The notes under the pieces: model-generated
The model's database searches: none
What the model saw: the letters and a program-made list of their open reading frames with translations, nothing else
Told to the model about the DNA's origin: nothing
Source: a bacterium
Lineage (GTDB): Bacteria > JAJVIF01
Length of the DNA stretch: 64,000 nucleotides
Reading direction: 5' to 3'
Assembly: GCA_022072165.1 (NCBI GenBank)
Contig: JAJVIF010000004.1
Location: forward strand, 205,667 to 269,666
Program-made: the position numbers and the translations under genes
In this document: positions 53,657 to 54,832 of the stretch, in pieces
Layout of the letters: every line of letters begins with the position of its first letter
Numbering within the stretch: the stretch's first letter is position 1

Positions 53657-54055
53657 ATGCCAGACCGGTGTCCGGAGAGTTTGTTGCGTCTGGAGGCGAC
53701 GGAGGCGTCGTTTCTGCAGGACTTGTTGCGGGGAGCGTTGGACTGGCCGATCCCGGCCGGGGTCCGGTCGCTGGAGGAGATCGCCTATCAGTGGGATCTG
53801 TCGGAGTTGCGGCTGGAGGACTTCGGGGTACGGTTGAAATCGCGGTTTGCCATGCAGCTCCCAGATCTCGAAGCGGAGCAGCCATTCACCGTGTTTATGA
53901 TGGAGGTCAGTGACTATATCAACCTCGATGCACGGACCGGATTGCATATGCTGTTGAACAAGTTTATCCGGGTGCTCCAAAGCAAGAGCCAGCGCCCAAC
54001 TCATTTAGTTTCCTGGAAGCCAGACGATCTGCTGCTGATTTTCACCAAGGACTAG
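53657..54055 (+). CDS. Stand-alone N-terminal domain of an Eco57I-type MTase (first part of a split gene)
   Basis: A 132-residue protein homologous to the N terminus of the preceding methyltransferase: SFLQDLLRGALDWPIP (18-33) against RAFLDLLRDVLEWPLP (21-36), and LVSWKPDDLLLIFT (117-130) against LPAWKREHLLFICT (120-133). It has a strong AGGAGG. It stops at a TAG (54053-54055), yet the homology goes on in the same frame in the next entry. The domain may bind DNA or partners; function unknown. Confidence 0.75.
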   Translation: MPDRCPESLLRLEATEASFLQDLLRGALDWPIPAGVRSLEEIAYQWDLSELRLEDFGVRLKSRFAMQLPDLEAEQPFTVFMMEVSDYINLDARTGLHMLLNKFIRVLQSKSQRPTHLVSWKPDDLLLIFTKD

Positions 54056-54073
54056 GAGTCGTACTCCTTCATC

Positions 54074-54832
54074 ATGTACGAACCCGATCCCCTCGGGGAA
54101 CGCGAGGCTGTGCTCCCTAAATTCAGCTGGCAGTTGCATCAGCGCCGGGAGTACATCTGGCGCGATCATCTCCGTTTTCTCTCCTGGCCGGAAGATCTGG
54201 ATCAATGGAAGGTCGCCTGGCGGCCCGGTTTTCACACGTTCCTCGAGCAGACGAGCATTTCCCCACATCGCCCATCTACTGGCAGTCCGCGCCGATCGCG
54301 CCGGCGCGAGGACGATTTGATGCGCGATGCAATCTTTGCGACAGACAGAGGGTTGGCATCGGGTGTTTTGCAAGAAGACCCGGACATGTGGGAATTGGCA
54401 CAAAGTTTAATCTTGGCTAATGCGAGTCTGAGCGAAAGCGATGATCCAGCCGATTGGGTAGGCCGTGCCACAGAGCGGCAAGTCGTGCGGGAAATCTTGC
54501 GGGGACGCTTCAGAGCGCCCTCAGGATCGGCGCTGGAACGCGCTCAAGCACTCACGGAACGCCGGGATGCAGCCAAGCGGCTTTTGCGTTGCCACGTTAA
54601 TGAAGAGCGGATGCAACGTGACCTCGCGATCGTGTTTGGCGAGACGAATTGGAACGAGACAGACTATGTCTCATTTCCGACAGCCGTGCGTGAATCCACC
54701 GGGGAAGACTCATGGCGCTGCTGGGAGTTAACCGACGTAGCTATCGAAGACCTGGTTCGACTTTTCCCTGATCTTGCGGGCTCCGCCGCAAACTGGTGGG
54801 CGCAGTCGTCTGATGCGGAAGCGCCTCAGTAA
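54074..54832 (+). CDS. Second part of the split gene: MTase-domain end plus unknown C-terminal region
   Basis: A 252-residue frame, same phase as the preceding one and separated by a single TAG plus six codons. Residues 1-60 continue the MTase N-terminal homology (LRFLSWPED, 33-41, against LDKLVWPED, 175-183 of the full MTase). Residues about 75-252 match nothing I know: helical, Arg/Glu-rich, with [20 protein letters not shown]. No ribosome site is obvious at 54074. Stop overlaps an ATG at 54832. Either a pseudogene or one 391-residue protein with amber readthrough. Confidence 0.6.
   Translation: MYEPDPLGEREAVLPKFSWQLHQRREYIWRDHLRFLSWPEDLDQWKVAWRPGFHTFLEQTSISPHRPSTGSPRRSRRREDDLMRDAIFATDRGLASGVLQEDPDMWELAQSLILANASLSESDDPADWVGRATERQVVREILRGRFRAPSGSALERAQALTERRDAAKRLLRCHVNEERMQRDLAIVFGETNWNETDYVSFPTAVRESTGEDSWRCWELTDVAIEDLVRLFPDLAGSAANWWAQSSDAEAPQ

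Follow-up and report, generated by a model that had tools for sequence, protein, structure and literature searches.

A TAG-interrupted, detached copy of a methyltransferase N-terminal domain between a helicase-methyltransferase pair and a cas operon

What is a second copy of a DNA methyltransferase N-terminus, cut by one in-frame stop codon, doing between a restriction-like gene pair and a cas operon? We analyzed this arrangement in a 64,000-nucleotide stretch of bacterial DNA, which we refer to as the window.

The interrupted frame and its upstream neighbors

The following features were found in and upstream of the interrupted frame:

47214-50435, plus strand: PLD-SNF2 helicase, 1073 aa, intact, partner of the methyltransferase (Pfam Helicase_C 1.5e-18, SNF2 9.8e-10, PLDc_2 1.2e-07)
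50435-53584, plus strand: Eco57I-type adenine methyltransferase with a TaqI_C specificity domain, 1049 aa, intact (Pfam Eco57I 3.2e-33, TaqI_C 2.9e-12)
50435-51034, plus strand: N-terminal domain (N-domain) of the methyltransferase, ~200 aa (AlphaFold2 mean pLDDT 91.3)
53645-53650, plus strand: ribosome-binding site AGGAGG of the interrupted gene, 6 nt 5' of its ATG
53657-54241, plus strand: detached copy of the N-domain with one TAG inside (pairwise match E 2e-24, domain profile E 1.1e-46)
54053-54055, plus strand: the in-frame TAG, aligned to methyltransferase residue 136 and separating two core beta strands in the predicted structure

The frame begins with ATG at 53657 and is open until TAA at 54830-54832 except for the TAG, which is residue 133 of the read-through translation. 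We aligned this translation to the upstream Eco57I-type methyltransferase and observed 31% identity between its residues 10-194 and methyltransferase residues 8-200. The homology ran across the stop in a single frame and ended at ~54235, and comparison of all frames found no other methyltransferase part beyond this point. The clear in-frame codon signature of the copy reached 54241. A domain profile of 19 rows, the detached copy itself among them, matched at positions 2-186 of 188. These data confirm the original prediction of a TAG-split paralogue of ~200 residues, without the catalytic core and with no change of frame at the stop.

The detached copy starts 72 nt downstream of the methyltransferase, and the helicase directly precedes the methyltransferase. 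The closest PADLOC model for the helicase was HKD+Snf2. DISARM and BREX likewise place an SNF2 helicase beside an adenine methyltransferase, but the helicase in the window scored 130.1 bits against the curated DrmD cut-off of 610, and the methyltransferase scored at most 69.9 bits against curated PglX cut-offs of 400-900, below all of them. Our literature search, which missed most subscription journals, found no report on the helicase-methyltransferase pair or the N-domain. The genome (3.26 Mb, 4 contigs, 99.1% complete) contained two N-domains, that of the methyltransferase and the detached copy, and none was present in the three other genomes of the phylum that we examined. Plasmid and phage searches with the N-domain or the whole protein gave no matches.

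Age of the copy and nature of the stop

To place the copy in its family, we used a tree of 71 N-domains (181 columns). The detached copy fell in the same clade as the domain of the neighboring methyltransferase, and its terminal branch was the longest of all (1.72, compared to 0.65 for the neighbor). The domain of the methyltransferase was 41-49% identical to closer domains from other phyla, although it shared 31% identity with the copy next to it. From this divergence and the branch length, the copy is an old, divergent paralogue rather than a recent duplicate. It retained 40 of 81 conserved columns, and divergent intact members retained 40-45. When neutral decay was simulated until identity had fallen to a comparable degree, ~3 or more stops and ~10 indels were expected (the indel count assuming one per ten substitutions), whereas we observed one stop and zero frameshifts. 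These data suggest that the copy remained under protein-level constraint up to recent times and that the stop is recent. The term 'fresh pseudogene' in the original prediction, the best of the readings it offered, thus fits the stop but not the duplication, which is old.

We favor, with moderate confidence, the reading that this is a detached methyltransferase N-domain that evolved separately for a long time as a protein and was recently inactivated by a nonsense mutation. Positions 53657-54241 would be its gene, and the mutation at the TAG would have abolished its function. When intact, the product would probably have worked alongside the restriction-like pair of helicase and methyltransferase. 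It may have docked on the methyltransferase core or on the helicase, using the surface that the N-domain of the methyltransferase itself uses, a role suggested by gene order and domain architecture. The detached-gene reading is supported by the modularity of the N-domain, which also heads a second methyltransferase type and TaqI_C proteins, and by the intact detached N-domain genes of Poribacteria described below. A single base is decisive here: an assembly error at 54053-54055 would leave the gene intact.

The main rival reading is plain decay, in which a second, distantly related copy of the whole methyltransferase gene would have lost all but its 5' end (53657-54241) by deletion and acquired the stop later, without the remnant ever serving a separate function. 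The copy does retain the whole domain and breaks off where a methyltransferase would go on. Another genome (L137:9980-12863) has a frameshifted helicase followed by a similar N-domain stub with no methyltransferase, and this stub has the second-longest branch in the tree. However, the branch of the detached copy exceeds those of most domains within methyltransferases by a factor of ~2-3, which suggests that it was under other constraints before the stop arose. In addition, the break lies within a few residues of the domain boundary, and no remnant of a methyltransferase core follows in any frame. We therefore regard plain decay as unlikely, while taking it seriously.

Amber readthrough, in which the TAG is decoded at some rate and both forms are produced, would account for the persistence of homology and frame beyond the stop. 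In a 364-kb sample of the genome, 11 of 14 same-frame coding continuations followed a TAG. However, most TAG-split pairs looked like ordinary adjacent genes (for example, a YbaB-like frame followed by a RecR-like frame, recognized by eye), and we dropped this excess as a sign of recoding. TAG ended 80 of 228 long ORFs in the same sample (76 of 204 in another count; 35-37%), whereas an amber-recoded genome would be expected to use it rarely. Because TAG is an ordinary stop here, amber recoding is unlikely in this genome, and readthrough of this particular TAG, one of the readings first proposed, is highly improbable. Another in-frame TAG of this genome lies on the minus strand inside a frame that, by eye, resembles an Ig-like repeat protein (L148:18627-19607).

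The original prediction also proposed two interacting subunits, which would be one of 132 aa (53657-54055) and one of 252 aa starting at ATG 54074. This ATG lies 18 nt past the stop, with an AGGAG 15 nt ahead of it. The AGGAG is too distant, however, and the start has no well-placed ribosome site. The TAG would also part two neighboring core strands, and natural detached copies finish ~30 residues later. Two subunits are accordingly very hard to credit.

The sequence after the domain and the cas operon

Downstream of the detached copy, we distinguished the following features:

54242-54319, plus strand: junction without homology or codon periodicity, with GC of 0.65 at all three codon positions, Arg/Ser/Pro-rich in frame
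54320-54832, plus strand: orphan frame, 170 aa, of uncertain coding status and without detectable relatives
55072-56847, plus strand: cas10 (Cmr2) from its likelier start (GGAGG-N5-ATG; Cmr2_N from residue 103 of the ORF; starts of homologues)

The original prediction joined the N-domain to an unknown helical C-terminal region. We found no relatives of this region in family, own-genome, plasmid, phylum-wide and locus searches. The 196 codons past the homology contain no stop; random sequence of the same composition would stay open this long in ~0.4% of cases. The coding score of 54320-54829 was 0.017, a value as low in 4% of real windows and as high in 2% of out-of-frame windows. AlphaFold2 modeled the N-terminal part of the read-through protein fairly to well and the remainder mostly at pLDDT 30-60, which says little because the C-terminal part was run without an alignment. 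The region has an open frame, no detectable relatives and a weak coding signal, and could equally well be a fused domain, a separate short ORF or non-coding sequence.

Three candidate matches to the C-terminal region were set aside. A long Methylacidiphilum methyltransferase resembled it in its C-terminal part (E 0.007), but this similarity was gone on direct comparison, and a match in another genome (22 bits, 2 stops) was judged to be chance. Across 12 cas10 loci of 3-4.5 kb, the region was absent except for one chance match that fell within cmr3. We also looked for a TaqI_C domain after the detached N-domain and found neither a Pfam match nor similarity to the Poribacteria proteins that combine an N-domain with TaqI_C.

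The open frame leaves room for a true C-terminal domain beyond 54241, given its ~0.4% chance. One such reading is an intact protein with the N-domain and a new helical C-terminal domain, in which the TAG either arose as an error of sequencing or assembly or is a rare variant within the sample. The single stop throughout 53657-54832, the open codons beyond the homology and the alternative C-termini known on other N-domain proteins all fit this reading, but the C-terminal half has the weak coding signal, lack of relatives and low pLDDT described above, and no other N-domain protein shares it. We consider an intact protein improbable. The same low standing applies to a functional gene in which the detached assembly domain and a new effector domain join the helicase-methyltransferase machine, with the TAG as an assembly error or a regulated stop. 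Under our preferred reading of an inactivated detached domain, the frame downstream of 54241 would be unrelated, perhaps an orphan ORF that is in the same frame by accident.

We also assessed the supposed link to the cas operon. The letters TAATG are present at 54830 as first described, and the listed cas10 ORF begins at 54832. However, the annotated starts of cas10 in Allomeiothermus, Aeromonas and Thermus fall at about residue 99-100 of this ORF, and a GGAGG (55062-55066) lies 5 nt ahead of ATG 55072, 240 nt after the listed start. Because of these two observations, the TAATG is probably fortuitous; the start at 54832 is probably wrong, and the cas10 operon would begin independently at ~55072. 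An HD domain was not found in this cas10. The gene is followed by cmr3, cmr4, cmr5, a cmr6-cmr1 fusion and a CARF-HEPN gene; the fusion is a single 677-aa frame (59277-61310). The frames past the CARF-HEPN gene read as putative cas1 and cas2. A CRISPR array with 37-nt repeats of GTCTCAATTACCGCCCCGTCAGTGAGGGGATTGAAAC lies just past the window (L157, contig positions 269667-270950), and the contig ends inside it.

Homologues of the cas genes in the window were absent from all 182 loci with the N-domain or the methyltransferase family. Together with the lack of relatives of the C-terminal region, this does not support the proposal of an accessory protein that couples restriction and CRISPR.

The N-domain in other genomes

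The N-domain of the methyltransferase had no match in Pfam or PHROGs, and a fold search of PDB and viral libraries returned nothing with E below 0.1. We observed it at the head of Eco57I-type methyltransferases, typically directly behind a PLD-SNF2 helicase. These N-domains share homology over 194 residues and the predicted core fold with the copy in the window, which differs in being off the catalytic core, far more divergent and cut by the TAG. The N-domain also heads a second methyltransferase type, with the PLD-SNF2 helicase again adjacent wherever the neighborhood was read (L130-L132, L135, L139, L141). What looked like a short copy at the end of a contig (L127) was a cut-off methyltransferase gene.

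In Poribacteria, the N-domain also precedes TaqI_C specificity domains, with no helicase nearby. These proteins (L195:2127-8606 and L196-L208) are ~450-530 aa long, apart from two longer ones with repeated TaqI_C regions, and one locus (L195) has four in tandem and another fused behind a full methyltransferase. Beside them lie ORFs of 327-373 aa that match Eco57I weakly, in all cases under the Pfam cut-off. Like the read-through frame in the window, they consist of an N-domain followed by a different C-terminus, but theirs is a target-recognition domain, whereas the C-terminal region in the window matches nothing. This arrangement suggests that the N-domain contacts the methyltransferase core. 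The two methyltransferase settings and the free-standing genes described below would allow contact with the helicase too.

We searched for unsplit homologues adjoining methyltransferases. Of 85 Poribacteria genomes, 11 carried an intact, free-standing N-domain gene of ~180-240 aa beside an N-domain methyltransferase. Four complete loci were read, and in each of them the gene lies between the PLD-SNF2 helicase and the methyltransferase:

L209:6090-6890, intact free-standing N-domain gene
L210:10037-10594, intact free-standing N-domain gene
L211:7918-8661, intact free-standing N-domain gene
L213:7115-7906, intact free-standing N-domain gene

In the last of these loci, a 170-aa ORF that matches an addiction-module antidote family lies between the free-standing gene and the methyltransferase (L213:6247-6756).

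Similar to the copy in the window, the Poribacteria genes are detached N-domains that adjoin a helicase-methyltransferase pair. They are intact and upstream of the methyltransferase, with an uninterrupted frame across the core strands, whereas the copy in the window is downstream of it and interrupted at residue 133. The C-terminal region in the window is absent from them. In addition, the final 50-60 residues of the N-domain are missing from them but retained by the copy in the window. For this reason, the source of the copy may be a truncated methyltransferase or specificity gene instead of the Poribacteria free-standing lineage.

Taken alone, the gene in the window is probably broken. It led us to a domain of ~200 residues that is unnamed in the family libraries used and has no solved fold match. 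This domain is common to two types of DNA methyltransferase, proteins with target recognition only, and free-standing genes, and because of this distribution it is likely an assembly module of helicase-linked restriction systems. The lasting interest of the locus lies in this unnamed N-domain and its free-standing relatives.
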